A stretch of DNA of 64,000 nt from Acidocella sp. KAb 2-4. GTDB taxonomy: Bacteria; Pseudomonadota; Alphaproteobacteria; Acetobacterales; Acetobacteraceae. The stretch lies in contig NZ_JAJDJU010000007.1 of NCBI RefSeq assembly GCF_020567705.1, positions 62,001-126,000 on the forward strand, in the 5' to 3' direction. This document shows, piece by piece, positions 18,720 through 43,857 of the stretch (the stretch's first letter is position 1; each line of letters starts with the position of its first letter). The notes below the pieces were generated by a model, which made no database searches, had not been told where the DNA came from, and worked only from the letters and a program-made list of their open reading frames with translations. The position numbers were made by a program, and so were the translations under genes.

Positions 18720-20071
18720 GTCCTATGAGTAGGTTGTTCAGCGCTGTCGGCAGGAGGGCGATCCGCGCTATCAGCCGAAGCCCTGAGAAAATTCCGCGAG
18801 AGCGCGTGATAGAGCGGCTCGCGCGAGACCAACCGCGAGGCGCCGAGCCCGATCATCGCCGCCAGCATCAGCGGGATCACATTGGCGTCGTTGCCGGTCA
18901 TCTCCAGAATGATGACGAAGGCGGTCATCGGCGCCTGCACCACCCCGGCGAAATACCCGGCCATGCCGAGCACCGCGCCCAGGCTGGCGCCGCTGGCGCC
19001 GCCCAGCCAAGCGCCCAAACCCGCGCCCACCGCCAGCGACGGCGCGAAAATCCCGCCCGGCAGGCCGGAGATGGCGGTGATCAGCGTCGCCGCCAGCTTG
19101 GCCAGCCAGAAATACCAGGGCGGGGCGTGCCCCTCCACGGCGGCGCGGGCCACGCCGTAGCCGGTGCCGAAGGTGGCGCCGTGCGTGGCCAGCCCGAGCA
19201 GCGCCACGGCGATGCCGCAGCCCAGCGGAAACAAATAGCGCCGCCGCGCCTCATGCGCCGCGATCCAGCCACTAGCCAGCCGCCCGCCCTCCAGCATCAG
19301 CCGCGAAAACGCGCCCCCGGCCAGCCCGCCCAGCGCGCCGCAGCCGATGGTGAGCAGCCAGTCGCGCGGCTGCGTGACCGCGGCATGGGTGATGCCGAAA
19401 TAGGTGTAATTCCCGGCCAGGCCGAGCGAGACGAGGCCGGAGATGATCACCGTGGTCAGCACCAGGCCATTGGTGCGCACCTCAAAGGAGCGGCTCATCT
19501 CCTCGATGGCGAAGACGATGCCCGCGAGCGGCGCGTTAAACGCGGCGGCGATGCCCGCGGCCGACCCGGCCAGGATCAGCCCGCCTTCATTGGCCAGCGA
19601 CTCGATGCGCGCCACTTGCAGCATCAGCGCCGCGCCCACCTGCACGGTCGGCCCCTCGCGCCCCACCGAGGCGCCGCAGAGCAGCCCGATCACGGTCAGC
19701 CCGATCTTGCCGAAGCCGATGCGCAGCGACAGCAGCCGTTGCAGCGCCTGCCCGCGCGGCAGCTGGCGTGCCGCGATCGCCTGCGGGATGCCGCTGCCCT
19801 GCGAGCCGGGGAAGAATTCCCGCGCCGCCCAGGCGCAGAACACGAAGCCCGCCGGGGTGAGCAGCGCCGGCAGCGCCCAATAGGCATGGCTGGCCGCGCC
19901 AAACACCGCCTGCGCCCAGTTGGCCATCTGGGCGAACACGATGCTGACCCCGCCCACCACGAGCGCCCCCAGCCAAAACGCCAACCGGCGCGACCATTGG
20001 CGCCACGCCCGCCACAAACGGCGCCGCCATCGCTTTTCTTTCTCAGCCAAGCCCTTGCCTCTTTGTCTCAT
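18710..20071 (-). CDS. ClC-type chloride channel/transporter
   Basis: Multi-helix inner-membrane protein of 453 aa in the ClC family. The three anion-pathway motifs are present: GSGIPQ, GREGPTVQ (with the gating glutamate) and GIFAPSLAVGAG. An N-terminal basic stretch and a Ser/Asp/Pro-rich C-terminal tail flank the core; there are no CBS domains. The retained gating glutamate fits a proton/chloride exchanger, often used in acid resistance, but the mode cannot be proven from sequence. The start is ATG at 20071; the longer GTG at 20089 would run into the tRNA leader region. Confidence 0.92.
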   Translation of the reverse strand: MRQRGKGLAEKEKRWRRRLWRAWRQWSRRLAFWLGALVVGGVSIVFAQMANWAQAVFGAASHAYWALPALLTPAGFVFCAWAAREFFPGSQGSGIPQAIAARQLPRGQALQRLLSLRIGFGKIGLTVIGLLCGASVGREGPTVQVGAALMLQVARIESLANEGGLILAGSAAGIAAAFNAPLAGIVFAIEEMSRSFEVRTNGLVLTTVIISGLVSLGLAGNYTYFGITHAAVTQPRDWLLTIGCGALGGLAGGAFSRLMLEGGRLASGWIAAHEARRRYLFPLGCGIAVALLGLATHGATFGTGYGVARAAVEGHAPPWYFWLAKLAATLITAISGLPGGIFAPSLAVGAGLGAWLGGASGASLGAVLGMAGYFAGVVQAPMTAFVIILEMTGNDANVIPLMLAAMIGLGASRLVSREPLYHALSRNFLRASADSADRPPADSAEQPTHRTTK

Positions 20072-20097
20072 CGCCGCTAGTAAGCCCACGTGGATAT

Positions 20098-20172
20098 GGG
20101 CGCTTAGCTCAGCGGTAGAGCATCACCTTGACATGGTGGGGGTCACAGGTTCAATCCCTGTAGCGCCCACCA
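20098..20172 (+). tRNA. tRNA-Val (anticodon GAC)
   Basis: A 75-nt cloverleaf including an encoded CCA. The acceptor stem is GGGCGCT/AGCGCCC, the D-arm is TAGCTCAGCGGTAGAGCA, the anticodon stem CACC/GGTG holds the loop TTGACAT with anticodon GAC, and the T-arm ACAGGTTCAATCCCTGT carries the usual TTCAATC. GAC decodes GUC and GUU valine codons. An extra 8-bp helix can form between leader GTGGATAT (20090-20097) and trailer ATATCCAC (20172-20179). Confidence 0.96.
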
Positions 20173-20231
20173 TATCCACCAGAAAATCAGAAACTTGCTG
20201 AATTTTCCTCGGGCAATACCGCAGCCCGGAC

Positions 20232-21149
20232 TCAGCCCTGCGCTGGGCTCGGGTCAGAGCTGGCCGCTTCGTCCGGCCTTATAAAGGCTTGGGCGTATTT
20301 CGCGTCGATGATCTGTTGGCAGAAGGTGAGCAGGCGCAGCAGCGCCGCGCTGGCCGCCTCGGCATCGCGCAGATCCGGCACGCACGCGCGCAGAGTCGGC
20401 GGAAACACCGTGCGCAGGAAGGCCATGTTGGCGGCGAAATACACTGGCCGGATGCCGGCGCAGACATAATCCTCGGCGATTTCCTCCTGGCGGCGGAAAA
20501 AATCCTGGCCGTATTCGCCCGCGAACAGGCTCTCCAGCCATTCGGCATGCATCTGCCGCAGCCGCGCCTCCCGCCCGGCGATTAGCGCCGCCATATGCGG
20601 CTCGGCCTTGAGCACGGCATAAAACCTCTCGGTCAGCCCGGGCAGGGCGGCGCGCACATCCGGCCAGAGCCGGGTCAGCAGCTCCTGGTCGGCGCGGGTG
20701 AAGCCGGCCGCGTTGTGCAGCATCTTCACCATCCGGTCGGCCTGTTCGGCGGCGGTGACGGGGGCGGGCTCCACCGGCACGTCCTCAAAACGGCTGGCGA
20801 TGCTGGCGGCGGCATTGGCGGTGGCGAGCAGCAACGTGCCCAGCTTTACCGCCGGGCTGCCGAGCGCGCACAACACCGCCTCCGGTCCGGCCTCGCGCAG
20901 CAGCATGTGGCCCGCCTCGCCGGTGAGCAGCATTTGCTCCAGCCGTCCACGGCCAAATCCGGCAGAGAGCGCCGTCGCGGGCGGCATCATGGCGGCGACG
21001 GTGGCGCTGATCTGCGTCTCGTCACACCCTGTCGGCAGTTGCGCGGCGATCACCCGGCCGTCGGTGCAGAGCACCGCCGCGCCATCCACATGCGGGGTGT
21101 TGCCGACCAAGGCTTCCAAAACGTCGCAGACCCGGACGTCACGTAGCAT
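20232..21149 (-). CDS. Roadblock/LC7 - sensor-globin fusion protein
   Basis: A 305-aa protein with two parts. Residues about 8-115 have the Roadblock/LC7 layout (strand, helix, two strands, helix), including LEQMLLTGEAGHMLL and ALGSPAVKLGTLLLATANAA. Residues about 150-270 match the protoglobin/globin-sensor fold (ALPGLTERFYAVLK, QMHAEWLESLFAGEY). At the F-helix the family pattern IAxxHxRIGLxP reads IAEDYVCAGIRP, so the proximal heme ligand is Tyr228 instead of His. There is no kinase, GGDEF or methyl-accepting domain. The ATG at 21149 follows AGAGGG. The next gene upstream on the same strand is the S24 regulator. Confidence 0.75.
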   Translation of the reverse strand: MLRDVRVCDVLEALVGNTPHVDGAAVLCTDGRVIAAQLPTGCDETQISATVAAMMPPATALSAGFGRGRLEQMLLTGEAGHMLLREAGPEAVLCALGSPAVKLGTLLLATANAAASIASRFEDVPVEPAPVTAAEQADRMVKMLHNAAGFTRADQELLTRLWPDVRAALPGLTERFYAVLKAEPHMAALIAGREARLRQMHAEWLESLFAGEYGQDFFRRQEEIAEDYVCAGIRPVYFAANMAFLRTVFPPTLRACVPDLRDAEAASAALLRLLTFCQQIIDAKYAQAFIRPDEAASSDPSPAQG

Positions 21150-21275
21150 CGCACCCTCTAAAAAATTAGATTAGGTCCTGTTTCCGGACTATTTTTGCAT
21201 TAACGAATTTTTAATATACGTTCATCCGGCTGAACCCGCAATAATTATTCCGCTGCCGCGCCTAACACTTATTGG

Positions 21276-21917
21276 TTACTGGCTGGCCCAGATGATTCGG
21301 TGCATCCACAGAATTTCGGCCGCGCTGAAGCGCAACTCGGGATGAGCGGGGTTGAGACTCGCGAGTTGGACGCGCGTGGCGGTGCGGCGGATCAGCTGCT
21401 TGGCCATCACCGCGCCATCGGCAGTGCGGGCGACCACGCGGTCTCCCGCGCGAACCGGGGCGGCGGGGGAGACGATGATGGTGTCGCCCTCGCGATACGC
21501 TGGTTCCATCGAGTCGCCGCTGATTGTCAGCGCATAGGCGTTGGCGTCGCTGGTGGCGGGCATGTCCACCTGATCCCATCCCGCCCCGGCGGGATAGCCG
21601 CCATCGTCGAAGAATCCTTCCGCCCCGGCCTGGGCCATGCCGATCAGTGGAATCGTGCTGCGTCCGCGCCGGGTTTCGGGCACCGCGCGGGCGCCGCTCA
21701 CCAGGGCGGTGAATTCCTCCAGCCGCGCCCCGGTGGCGGCCAGGATCTTGGCCAGGCTCTCGGTCGAGGGCCAGCGCAGCTTGCCGTCGGCGGTGCGCCG
21801 CTTGGAGAGGTTGAAGCTGGTCGGGTCCAGCCCGGCCTTGCGCGCGAGGCCCGAAGGCGAGAGCCCATGCTCCGCCGCCAGCGTATCGATCGCGCGCCAG
21901 ATATCGTCGTGCCGCAT
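21276..21917 (-). CDS. Helix-turn-helix regulator with S24 peptidase (LexA/CI-like) domain
   Basis: A 213-aa regulator. An N-terminal lambda-repressor-like HTH (LSPSGLARKAGLDPTSFN) is joined to an S24 serine peptidase domain with Ser136 in SGDSMEP and the general base Lys173 in VMAKQL. AQAGAEG (residues 95-101) is a possible cleavage region. Chromosomal relatives of this type are common in alphaproteobacteria outside prophages, and no phage gene is near. An AAACCC-N5-GGGTTT palindrome sits upstream of its start and could be its operator. It runs divergently from the small gene at 22112. Confidence 0.87.
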   Translation of the reverse strand: MRHDDIWRAIDTLAAEHGLSPSGLARKAGLDPTSFNLSKRRTADGKLRWPSTESLAKILAATGARLEEFTALVSGARAVPETRRGRSTIPLIGMAQAGAEGFFDDGGYPAGAGWDQVDMPATSDANAYALTISGDSMEPAYREGDTIIVSPAAPVRAGDRVVARTADGAVMAKQLIRRTATRVQLASLNPAHPELRFSAAEILWMHRIIWASQ

Positions 21918-21943
21918 GCCTTTGCCGCCAATGCCGTAAGCTC

Positions 21944-21960
21944 AAACCCTTAACGGGTTT
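21944..21960. promoter_or_regulatory. Palindrome AAACCC-N5-GGGTTT, possible operator
   Basis: A perfect 6-bp inverted repeat with a 5-nt centre, 26 bp upstream of the S24-regulator ATG, followed by two GTTAAGG/GTTAAAGG-like repeats. Its position between the regulator and the divergent small gene fits an autoregulatory site, but binding is only inferred. Confidence 0.4.
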
Positions 21961-22037
21961 GGTTAAGGCGTTAAAGGCGAAATAGGAATCTTGTCCGAAA
22001 TTTTACCCGAAAAATGGGATTGGCGGGCAAAAAGTTC

Positions 22038-22066
22038 TTGTTTCGTTCCGGCTATAGGAATATAAG
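22038..22066 (+). promoter_or_regulatory. Sigma-70-like promoter before the 22112 gene
   Basis: TTGTTT (22038-22043) and TATAAG (22061-22066) are separated by exactly 17 bp, close to the housekeeping consensus, and lie about 45 bp before the ATG at 22112. The AT-rich setting in a GC-rich genome adds weight. Confidence 0.55.
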
Positions 22067-22111
22067 CCTCGCATTAACACAACCTTAAGTTTTCTGAAAA
22101 GGAAAGACTGC

Positions 22112-22345
22112 ATGGCCTTCTCGCTGCGTAACCTCTCGGTGCTTGCTTATGCCAACGGCTTCACGCTGTGGCATTACAAGGCCGGGAATGACAATTTCAG
22201 CCGCACGGCCGAGGCGGGTTATTTCGCCGATGCGGCGGATTTGTTGTGCGAGGGCGATATGGTGATGCTTACCGGCAGCGACGGCGGGCGCATCGTCAGC
22301 GTCGCCGGGCAGGGGCGGCGGATCGCCCTGGTACCCTTGGCGTAG
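22112..22345 (+). CDS. Small conserved hypothetical protein (77 aa)
   Basis: A 77-aa protein starting MAFSLRNLSVLAYANGFTLWHY, preceded by GGAAAG as ribosome-binding site and by a good promoter. It has no signal peptide or membrane segment, and no known domain that I recognise. The central part (AEAGYFADAADLLCEGDMV) followed by MLTGSDGGRI suggests a compact all-beta or alpha/beta domain, similar in flavour to small modules next to tail-fibre or surface proteins. Similar short proteins seem to occur in related alphaproteobacteria, from memory only. It diverges from the S24 regulator, which may control it. Confidence 0.75.
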   Translation: MAFSLRNLSVLAYANGFTLWHYKAGNDNFSRTAEAGYFADAADLLCEGDMVMLTGSDGGRIVSVAGQGRRIALVPLA

Positions 22346-22346
22346 G

Positions 22347-22369
22347 GGGCAGGCCGCGCGGGCCTGCCC
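22347..22369. terminator. GC-rich hairpin between convergent genes
   Basis: GGGCAGGCC pairs perfectly with GGCCTGCCC around a 5-nt loop. It sits between the stops of the 77-aa gene and pepA, which face each other. There is no T-run, so it may be a weak terminator or an RNA-protecting hairpin. Confidence 0.45.
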
Positions 22370-22378
22370 GGTGGGCGC

Positions 22379-23875
22379 TCAGGCCTCGAAATTGTCGTGC
22401 ACGAAGCGGTCGAGCAGGCGCACGCCGAAGCCGGTGGCGCCCTTCGGGGCCACGGCGGAGTCCTTGCTGGCCCAGGCCATGCCCGCGATATCCAGATGCG
22501 CCCAGGGTTTGCCATTGACGAAGCGTTGCAGGAATTGCGCGGCGGTGATCGAGCCGCCCGCGCGCCCGCCGCCGACATTCTTCACATCCGCGATCGCCGA
22601 GGCCAGCTCCTTGTCGTAGCTCTCGCCGGGGGCGGCCAGCGGCATGCGCCAGAGCTTCTCGTCCACCGCCGCCCCGGCGGCGGCCAGCTTGGCGGCCAGA
22701 TCGTCGTCATTACTGAACAGCCCGGCATATTCATGCCCGAGCCCGACGATGATCGCCCCGGTCAGCGTGGCGAGGTCGATCATCGCCTTGGGCGCGAAGC
22801 GCGACTGCGCGTAATGCAGCACATCCGCCAGCACCAGCCGCCCCTCGGCGTCGGTGTTGATGATCTCGATGGTTTGGCCGGAATAGCTCTTCACCACATC
22901 GCCCGGCCGGGTGGCGCTGCCCGAGGGCATATTCTCCACCAGCCCGACCAGCCCGACCACGTCCAGCTTCGCCTTGCGCGCGGCCAGCGCGGCCATCAGC
23001 CCGACCACGGCGCCCGCCCCGGCCATGTCCCATTTCATGTCCTCCATCCCCGCGGCGGGCTTCAGCGAGATACCGCCCGTGTCGAAGGTCACGCCCTTGC
23101 CGACGAACACCAGCGGCTCCTTGGGCTTGCGTGTCTTCTTGCTGTCCTCATGGCCAGGGGCGCCGAGCCATTGCAGCACCGCCATGCGCGCCGGGCGGGC
23201 GCTGCCCTGGGCCACGGCCAGCATGGAGCCGAAGCCGAGCTTCTTCAGCTCGTCCTCGTCGAACACCTCCACCTTCAGGCCCAGCTTCTTCAGTTCCTCG
23301 ATGCGCTCGGCGAATTCCGCCGGATACAGCGTGTTGGCCGGTTCGCTCACCAGATCGCGGGTCAGCTCCACGCCCTGCGCCACGGCGGCGAGCTGCTTAT
23401 ACGCGGCTTCGGCCTTGCGCGGCTCGGGGGTGAGGATGGTGAGATGGCGCAGCTTGAGCTTTTCGTCTTCCTTCTGCGTGGTGCGGTATTTGTCGAACCG
23501 GTACGCGCGCAGCCGGGCGCCGAAGCCGATCTGCGCCGCCTGGTCCGGCGTGAAATCCTCGGCCAGCACCGCCGCCTCGCTCTCGCGCGTCAGCGCCGCG
23601 GCGATCGCCCCGCCCAGCGCCTCGGCCATGCGCGCCGCGCCCGGCTTGCCGGTGCCCAGCACCAGCACGCGCTTATAGCCCTTGGGCGCGAGCAGCGCCG
23701 CCTGGCTGCCCTTTTTGCCCTTGAACTCCGCCGCCTCCAGCGCGCGCGCCAGCCCGCCATCCAGCGCCTTGTCCAGCGCCGCGGCATGGCCGGCGGGGGC
23801 CGCGCCCTCGGCCAGCGGCAGCACCAGCACGCCCGATTTCGGCAGTTCCGGCTTCGCGAACGAGATTTCCAGCAT
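22379..23875 (-). CDS. pepA: Leucyl aminopeptidase
   Basis: Cytosolic M17 metallo-aminopeptidase of 498 aa that trims N-terminal residues from peptides. The dinuclear metal and active-site motifs are present: VGKGVTFDTGGISLKP, MKWDMAGAGAVVG and NTDAEGRLVLADVL. The ATG at 23875 (MLEISFAKPEL) was chosen over an in-frame start 13 codons earlier, which lacks family support. In E. coli PepA also acts as a DNA-binding protein in recombination and carAB control; this cannot be judged here. It faces the 77-aa gene and diverges from cysQ. Confidence 0.95.
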   Translation of the reverse strand: MLEISFAKPELPKSGVLVLPLAEGAAPAGHAAALDKALDGGLARALEAAEFKGKKGSQAALLAPKGYKRVLVLGTGKPGAARMAEALGGAIAAALTRESEAAVLAEDFTPDQAAQIGFGARLRAYRFDKYRTTQKEDEKLKLRHLTILTPEPRKAEAAYKQLAAVAQGVELTRDLVSEPANTLYPAEFAERIEELKKLGLKVEVFDEDELKKLGFGSMLAVAQGSARPARMAVLQWLGAPGHEDSKKTRKPKEPLVFVGKGVTFDTGGISLKPAAGMEDMKWDMAGAGAVVGLMAALAARKAKLDVVGLVGLVENMPSGSATRPGDVVKSYSGQTIEIINTDAEGRLVLADVLHYAQSRFAPKAMIDLATLTGAIIVGLGHEYAGLFSNDDDLAAKLAAAGAAVDEKLWRMPLAAPGESYDKELASAIADVKNVGGGRAGGSITAAQFLQRFVNGKPWAHLDIAGMAWASKDSAVAPKGATGFGVRLLDRFVHDNFEA

Positions 23876-42568: not shown

Positions 42569-42640
42569 GATTGTCTCGGCTTGGCTGCGGAATGAGTATT
42601 GCGGCGGCGGCGGAACTGGGCTAGACGGCTTCCTGGGTCA

Positions 42641-42684
42641 CGCCCCCCCACCGGGGCGCTTTTCTTCTGCAAGGGAGAGGTTTC
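42641..42684 (+). promoter_or_regulatory. Hairpin in the serC leader, possible attenuator or serC motif
   Basis: CGCCCC (42641-42646) pairs with GGGGCG (42653-42658) and is followed by CTTTTCTTCT, so the RNA could form a terminator-like hairpin just before the ribosome-binding site AAGGGAGAGG. A structured RNA called the serC motif is known in alphaproteobacterial serC leaders; this fits it in position, but I did not match the full consensus. Confidence 0.4.
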
Positions 42685-43857
42685 ATGGCAGAATTTTCTT
42701 CAACCGCCAAGCCTGCGGTTCGTCCCCAAAATCCGAATTTCTCGTCCGGCCCGTGCGCCAAGCGCCCAGGCTTCACCCTGGCCGCGCTCGAATGCGCGAT
42801 GCTGGGCCGCAGCCACCGCGCCAAGGGGCCGAAGGCGAAGCTGGCCGAGGTTATCACCCGCTCCAAGGAGATCTTGGGCATGCCCGCCGATTGGCGGCTG
42901 GGCATCGTGCCGGCCTCCGACACCGGGGCGGTGGAGATGGCGCTGTGGTCGCTGCTGGGCGCGCGCCCGGTGGACGTGCTGGCGCATGAATCCTTCTCCG
43001 AAGCCTGGGCGACCGATGTGGTCAAGCAGCTCAAGCTGGCCGATGCCCGCGTCATCAAGGTCGCTTACGGGCAGCTCCCCGATGTCACCCAGATCGATTT
43101 CAGCCACGACGTGGTGCTGGCCTGGAACGGCACCACCTCGGGCGTGCGCTTCCCCAATGGCGATTTCATCCCCGCCGAACGCGAGGGGCTGGTGATCGCG
43201 GACAGCACCTCCGCCGCCTTCGCCATGGAGCTGCCATGGGAGAAGCTGGATGTGGTCACGTGGTCCTGGCAGAAGGTGCTGGGCGGCGAGGGCGCGCATG
43301 GCATGCTGGCGCTCAGCCCGCGCGCGGTGGAGCGGCTGCTCACCTACAAGCCGGCCTGGCCGCTGCCGAAGATTTTCCGCCTGACCTCGGGCGGCAAGCT
43401 GAGCGAAGGCATTTTCGTCGGCGAGACGATCAACACGCCGTCGATGCTTTGCGTGGAAGACGCGCTGGACGGGCTGCGCTGGGCGGAGTCGGTGGGCGGG
43501 CTCAAGGGGCTGATCGCGCGCTCCAACGCCAACCTCAAGGCCGTGGCCGATTGGGTTGAGGGCAATGAGCGCGTGCGCTTCCTGGCCGAGACGCCGCAGA
43601 CGCGCTCCAACACCTCGATCTGCCTGGCTATTGCCGCGCCGTGGTTCACCAAGCTGGATGCCGAGGCGCAGGCCAAGGCGGCCAAGGCCGTCGCCAGCCT
43701 GCTGGAGAAAGAGAATGTGGCGCTGGATGCCGGGGCGTATCGCGACGCGCCGCCGGGCCTGCGCATTTGGGGCGGCGCCACCGTGGAGACCGCGAATATC
43801 ACGGCGCTGCTGCCCTGGATCGACTACGCCATCGACACGGTGGCGAACGAGTTCTGA
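42685..43857 (+). CDS. serC: Phosphoserine aminotransferase
   Basis: PLP enzyme of 390 aa making 3-phosphoserine in serine synthesis; it can also serve vitamin B6 synthesis. The start [15 protein letters not shown] matches the alphaproteobacterial long SerC group. The PLP lysine is in [16 protein letters not shown]. The C-terminal part ([22 protein letters not shown]) is also typical. The ATG at 42685 has AAGGGAGAGG upstream. serA follows after 145 bp of structured DNA, so the two genes form a serine unit with some internal control. Confidence 0.93.

Follow-up and report, generated by a model that had tools for sequence, protein, structure and literature searches.

A single protein of Acidocella sp. 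KAb 2-4, which we call P0001, joins an N-terminal Roadblock/LC7 domain to a C-terminal sensor globin in which the proximal heme histidine, at position F8, is replaced by a tyrosine. Fused globins of this kind in Acidocella have one origin, and position F8 has changed more than once among them; P0001 may be an adaptor that works by protein contact and makes no use of the ordinary globin heme site. The gene and its surroundings in the window (the whole stretch of 64,000 nucleotides that was analyzed) are set out in Table 1, together with adjoining single-domain genes found at related loci elsewhere.

Table 1. Features of the fusion locus (positions in the window), and adjoining single-domain Roadblock and globin genes outside Acidocella (locus handles).
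Feature	Location	Strand	Evidence or source organism
Roadblock-sensor globin fusion gene P0001	20232..21149	-	305-aa reading frame, Pfam, dN/dS
Roadblock/LC7 domain, residues 12-95	20865..21116	-	Pfam PF03259, E 8.6e-12; folds 9jue, MglB
Residues 96-140, end of Roadblock part and linker	20730..20864	-	AlphaFold2 model
Sensor globin (protoglobin-type) domain, residues 141-287	20289..20729	-	Pfam PF11563, E 8.8e-20; HemAT and 2w31 folds
Tyr228 codon TAT (F8; proximal heme His in relatives)	20466..20468	-	Alignment, 4 solved sensor globins and 47 related globin domains
Codon CAT of His201, E11, second heme ligand position in Geobacter GCS globin	20547..20549	-	Alignment to 2w31
Upstream gene, Peptidase_S24 domain (LexA/repressor-like)	21276..21917	-	Pfam PF00717, 78.4 bits; conserved synteny
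tRNA-Val(gac), convergent, far side of conserved locus	20098..20172	+	tRNA prediction
Adjoining Roadblock and globin genes	L058, L059		Acidithiobacillus ferrivorans
Adjoining Roadblock and globin genes	L075		A. sulfuriphilus
Adjoining Roadblock and globin genes	L079		Acidithiobacillus MAG
Adjoining Roadblock and globin genes	L060, L074		Acidobacteriaceae MAGs
Adjoining Roadblock and globin genes	L066		Chromatiales MAG

The P0001 reading frame is real and opens with an ATG, and both of its halves are recognized well above the Pfam cut-offs: the N-terminal part scores 45.1 bits against Robl_LC7 (cut-off 23) and the C-terminal part 71.7 bits against Protoglobin (cut-off 25). Up to an E-value of 10 these are the only Pfam matches, and thus an output domain is absent, as an earlier note on this DNA had stated. 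P0001 is also the sole Roadblock and the sole protoglobin match in its genome (E 1e-3), and the species therefore seems to be without an ordinary sensor globin of the protoglobin kind. An AlphaFold2 model built with 47 natural sequences has a mean pLDDT of 87.6 and a pTM of 0.63, the latter making the relative placement of the two domains less certain. In the model, a helix spanning residues 103-121 ends the Roadblock part and the next helix starts at residue 133. The globin half matches the folds of HemAT (residues 134-283, Z 19.5, rmsd 1.9 over 149 residues) and of the Geobacter globin-coupled sensor (GCS) globin 2w31 (residues 138-287, Z 19.0), and the Roadblock half those of the archaeal Roadblock3 9jue (residues 3-123, Z 18.2) and of MglB (residues 1-126, Z 16.5); the fold comparison was also run with Foldseek. 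The domain arrangement read from the letters in the earlier note, which had named structure prediction as the check, is thus borne out at both ends of the protein, with neither half departing from its expected fold.

The two heme-site segments that had been quoted from the sequence, the F-helix motif IAEDYVCAGIRP and QMHAEW, were read correctly. Tyr228 aligns with the F-helix histidine of 2w31 (chain residue 93, counted by hand) and, in sequence alignments, lies opposite the F-helix histidine of 8h17, HemAT and AfGcHK as well. Since these four solved sensor globins and the 47 relatives all place Tyr228 at F8, the possibility that it is a misaligned neighbor was ruled out, and the proposed replacement of the proximal histidine by Tyr228 stands. 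As no other histidine is found in the F helix, P0001 lacks the proximal heme ligand expected of a sensor globin or protoglobin (PF11563). His201 is retained, as had also been claimed: it aligns with chain residue 66 of 2w31 (counted by hand), which a figure legend in PMC4476040 names His66(E11), and the reference list of the same article cites the bis-His structure of the Geobacter globin. Opposite His201, HemAT has Leu and AfGcHK has Met, and an adjacent gap leaves the pairing with 8h17 unsure. In the family alignment P0001 keeps both the E11 histidine and Tyr177, which we take to be B10.

Across the family, the state of F8 divides along the line between single-domain and fused proteins. In single-domain globins the residue is His in 28 of 28 (six of them from Acidocella), although this represents fewer independent cases because several rows are near-copies (L058/L059, L072/L073, L076/L078, L077/L080, L082/L083); in fused globins it is His in 14 of 20, Lys in 4, Phe in 1 and Tyr in 1, the last being P0001. 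Gene calls in relatives came from our own hexamer script, with predicted start positions, and the F8 counts exclude Roadblock-only rows and fragments that lack the F helix (L038_8599 and the truncated L046_8957). Beyond the counts, six further globins read by eye all have His at F8; one of them, from L099, is without the E11 histidine. On a tree of 47 globin domains, from which the partial L081 was additionally left out, the fused globins form one clade (support 96/92), and F8 needs three changes, all within that clade and all forced by well-supported branches. When the F-helix motif columns are removed, the clade stays (96/91) and three changes are again needed, but only two of them are imposed by well-supported branches; long branches lead to the Phe row (L045) and to one of the Lys rows (L033). 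The Roadblock tree resolves no single fusion (5 changes, weak). The tyrosine at F8 is therefore present in P0001 as described in the earlier note but is not a family-wide trait, being one of three F8 changes, with histidine kept in the two closest orthologues. We infer that HisF8 became dispensable more than once within the fused clade; the single-domain globins, which keep it, may still do the sensing. The F helix is strongly altered in the Lys-F8 fused paralogues (L036 12297-13211, L039 1192-2109, L040 9268-10185 and L033 2160-3041).

Position E11 behaves differently from F8. It is His in all six fused globins that have lost HisF8, and in 45 of 47 readable rows regardless of the F8 residue; the only exceptions, L032_1676 (Tyr) and L075_4083 (Ile), both carry HisF8. 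Because the residue is kept whatever stands at F8, its retention in P0001 says little about heme, and we rejected it as heme evidence.

The protein is kept under purifying selection, as seen from a dN/dS of 0.37 overall and 0.34 in the globin domain against the closest orthologue (G034, A. aromatica); against G012 the value is 0.31. The G034 and G012 orthologues are more tightly constrained relative to one another (0.16). All of these values were computed with a script of our own, and synonymous change is close to saturation. For the 19 codons of the F region (positions 218-236), dN/dS is 0.75 for P0001 against G034 and 0.61 against G012, compared with 0.013 between those two orthologues, each value resting on few changes. 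We also asked how many of the positions with at least 80% conservation across the 42 His-F8 rows are altered in P0001: 3 of the 6 such positions within the F region versus 3 of the 30 outside it (uncorrected Fisher P 0.045, with F8 counted), and 2 of 5 versus 3 of 30, no clear excess, without F8. Position 234 also differs in both His-F8 orthologues. The same test applied to four of the five other non-His rows (L040 was left out) did not reach 0.05 (P 0.057 to 0.34), so the excess in P0001 is a hint only; eight His-F8 control rows likewise gave no F-region excess at 0.05.

At the locus itself, the Peptidase_S24 gene lies upstream in a gene order common to five other loci (L031, L032, L043, L044 and L045), and tRNA-Val(gac) follows the fusion genes in L031, L043 and L045 and is absent in L044. 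A second fused gene is present in L031, L032, L043 and L044, and an additional single Roadblock gene in L045; the window has neither. A scan of 19900-22400 gave zero promoter-like sites; terminator-like sites numbered 4, compared with 2.6 in shuffled sequence. Elsewhere in the window, a serC leader RNA motif (RF00517) at 42631-42683 lies upstream of a predicted gene (42799-43857) without any match in Pfam at E 0.001.

The domain order that the earlier note suggested looking for in relatives was found in 17 of 38 Acidocella genomes, the window genome included and one fusion being cut by a contig end. The fused proteins are either about 300 aa long or about 370-440 aa with a long proline-rich linker, and in many Acidocella genomes they are adjoined by single Roadblock (about 121 aa) and single globin (about 184 aa) genes. 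A large gene of another kind adjoins a single Roadblock gene in one Acidocella locus (L050 4113-9125), encoding a 1670-aa protein with CheB, CheR, PAS, histidine kinase, receiver and LuxR-type parts. One Acidocella genome, G061, has no Roadblock match. P0001 finds matches in 24 of 61 genomes chosen as relatives, its own included (E 1e-3); a related-locus search with P0001 as the sole query confirmed no relative, and plasmid records gave no match to it. In samples drawn evenly from larger groups, with at most 7 (family) or 5 (phylum) candidates scored per genome, uninterrupted full-length matches at E 1e-10 were confined to Acidocella in the family sample of 299 genomes (where the genomes listed include 5 of Acidocella with a match and 2 without) and to the window genome in the phylum sample of 398; match rows with an internal stop can be adjoining single-domain genes. 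A widespread fusion was rejected on these grounds.

By our own reading, 17 of 31 related loci lie outside Acidocella, and a fusion was seen in none of them. In 7 of the 17 the Roadblock and globin domains are encoded by adjoining single-domain genes (Table 1), and the other 10 have a globin with no Roadblock match in the stretch examined. In L059 (1063-6393), two such pairs flank a gene for a globin-GGDEF-EAL-CZB protein.

The suggestion that P0001 serves a small GTPase, raised in the earlier note, gains some support from relatives and fails as a general rule. In L066 a small GTPase (ATP_bind_1, 62 bits; PDB matches include SEC4 at E 6e-7 and MglA at E 6e-5) lies directly upstream. A search with it turned up such a GTPase in 11 of 15 genomes picked for Roadblock or globin matches, and among six stretches read from these, four (L096 to L099) cluster a Ras/MglA-type GTPase with Roadblock and globin genes; in the remaining two, L100 with Roadblock and globin and L101 with Roadblock, the stretch is free of a GTPase, and the genome carries it on another contig. 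Single-domain homologues therefore cluster with such a GTPase in five loci, establishing that the association exists; its frequency is not given by L096 to L099, because the sample was picked for matches. An ODP-family beta-lactamase-fold gene is present in L096, L097 and L098, and these clusters are possibly an oxygen- or redox-linked GTPase system. In L098 (990-10604), the GTPase, sensor globin, Roadblock and short Roadblock-like genes and the ODP-family gene are accompanied by a calcineurin-like phosphoesterase gene. Against a general link, 16 of the 17 loci outside Acidocella have no GTPase in the stretch examined. Within Acidocella only 3 of 38 genomes (that of the window, G007 and G020) have a GTPase of this kind, whereas 18 of the 38 have Roadblock matches, and in 15 of these 18 the searches found no such GTPase; since so many Roadblock-bearing genomes lack one, a GTPase partner cannot be the general rule, and we rejected it as such. 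A GTPase partner for P0001 itself is possible: the window genome carries one on contig C1 (L087 9309-10771), not beside P0001 and between two short genes, one of which reaches Robl_LC7 with no better than E 0.075, while its counterpart has no Robl_LC7 match. The C1 GTPase cluster adjoins a glutamate-synthase-domain gene.

A globin-coupled sensor has an N-terminal globin joined to a C-terminal transmitter or output domain, and P0001, with its globin at the C terminus and no output domain found, does not fit this layout. Its globin belongs to the same family and fold as those of HemAT, 2w31 and AfGcHK, and shares HisE11 with the Geobacter protein; however, those sensors have HisF8, whereas P0001 has Tyr at F8 and a Roadblock partner. 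MglB and other Roadblock GTPase regulators share the predicted Roadblock fold, and some single-domain homologues of P0001 cluster with small GTPases as noted above, but P0001 is fused to a globin and has no adjoining GTPase gene, and none was found in most relatives.

The nearest precedent for the combination is HGbRL of the acidophile Methylacidiphilum infernorum (PMC4476040; PDB 3WFW/3WFX), which likewise joins a globin and a Roadblock/LC7 domain in one chain. The pairing is therefore not new, and the statement in the earlier note that no described family has this combination is not supported in that form. HGbRL has the globin first and the Roadblock last, with an HGbI-type globin whose closed form places LysE10 opposite the proximal histidine; its authors propose signaling from globin to Roadblock and note an MglA/MglB-like gene pair in the genome. 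P0001, in contrast, has the Roadblock first, a PF11563-type globin last and Tyr at F8. Neither 3WFW nor 3WFX is among the 12 PDB sequences matched by P0001 (E up to 10), and the two fusions are probably separate inventions. Among the matches listed in the literature searches, which cover few subscription papers, HGbRL is the sole globin-Roadblock protein. A heme-less globin also has a precedent: PMC4476040 describes the globin domain of RsbR from Bacillus subtilis as having lost HisF8 and heme and as acting in a signaling complex. P0001 resembles RsbR in its missing proximal histidine and differs in its partner domain, which is a Roadblock and not the STAS domain of the stressosome protein.

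Our preferred reading is that P0001 is a fused adaptor that works by protein contact without using the ordinary globin heme site and is probably heme-free; taken as a whole we hold it to be about evenly balanced. For the heme question by itself, we lean slightly toward a heme-free globin, with heme bound via HisE11, either alone or aided by Tyr228, a distinctly weaker candidate and some other state an unlikely remainder. P0001 would consist of a Roadblock/LC7 platform with the sensor globin as its input part. The ancestral Roadblock and globin pair would have reported gas or redox state to the Roadblock platform, and to a GTPase where one is present; the presence of HisE11 plus HisF8 suggests an ancestral bis-His heme as in the Geobacter globin. 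Fusion would then have tied the globin input to the platform. With HisF8 changed to Tyr, along with the other F-helix differences, heme would no longer be held through F8 in P0001, and the heme-free globin would serve for protein contact and for shaping the dimer, relaying the signal of a partner to the Roadblock half of a putative dimeric adaptor, in a mode that may be comparable to that of the RsbR globin.

Tyrosine is a ferric heme ligand in catalases, and the main rival, which would also be the more novel outcome, is that P0001 binds heme through His201 alone or together with the Tyr228 phenolate, in an inverted or Tyr-His arrangement, and keeps the Roadblock half informed of redox or ligand state. 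We regard this as tentative. The residue opposite His201 in the Geobacter GCS globin is a heme ligand (PMC4476040), Tyr177 and the E11 histidine are retained, and the Lys-F8 paralogues likewise keep E11; yet E11 is nearly invariant in all rows and not specially kept, and the changes at 225 and 230 beside F8 resemble loosening more than re-tuning. That a gas/redox module linked to Roadblock has become, in Acidocella, a family of one-chain sensors that re-ligate heme through HisE11, so that Tyr, Lys or Phe can take the F8 position, seems rather doubtful to us. If E11 re-ligation were true, P0001 would represent a naturally occurring heme sensor, of the Tyr/His or the E11-only kind, which shapes a Roadblock platform directly and signals without a kinase, cyclase or methyl-accepting output.

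The Roadblock half might instead be an MglB-like regulator of the C1 GTPase with the globin as its switch, a reading that overlaps with the protein-contact adaptor and does not exclude it. The GTPase clusters of single-domain homologues, the presence of a GTPase in the window genome when so few Acidocella have one, and the model's likeness to MglB all point this way, but we consider it improbable: the C1 GTPase has two short neighbors of its own, one of them weakly Roadblock-like, and no PDB sequence match at E 0.01; 14 other Acidocella genomes carry the fusion without a GTPase; and P0001 reaches 15.1 bits against the NCBIfam MglB GAP profile (NF052242), far under its equivalog cut-off of 200. 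Somewhat less probable still is that P0001 is a decaying paralogue with a functionless globin half, on its way to being lost. Such decay would accord with three F8 losses in the fused clade, with the second fused gene present at four of the five other loci and missing from the window, and with the looser dN/dS of P0001 relative to the G034-G012 comparison, but the reading frame is intact, the globin domain remains constrained, both domains score well over the Pfam cut-offs and the fold is confidently predicted. Finally, Tyr228 is known from one genome only, and codon 228, TAT in P0001 and CAT in the closest orthologue, differs by one C-to-T change, such that a sequencing or assembly error could hide a true HisF8. 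We think this very improbable, as positions 225, 227 and 230 likewise differ from the closest orthologue, which makes Tyr228 more than a lone-base oddity, and the same residue has changed in two other lineages of the fused clade.

What appears to be new is a protoglobin-type Roadblock fusion in reversed order, found so far in one genus only, together with the repeated loss of HisF8 and the GTPase/ODP neighborhood of some of the single-domain genes. The fused family offers a natural F8 series (His, Tyr, Lys and Phe), each type with the E11 histidine, and so lets one ask how a heme sensor domain becomes a heme-free or re-ligated signaling part. The clusters of single-domain genes with GTPases, three of them with an ODP-family gene, hint that bacteria have a Roadblock-GTPase system with a possible link to the sensing of oxygen or redox state.
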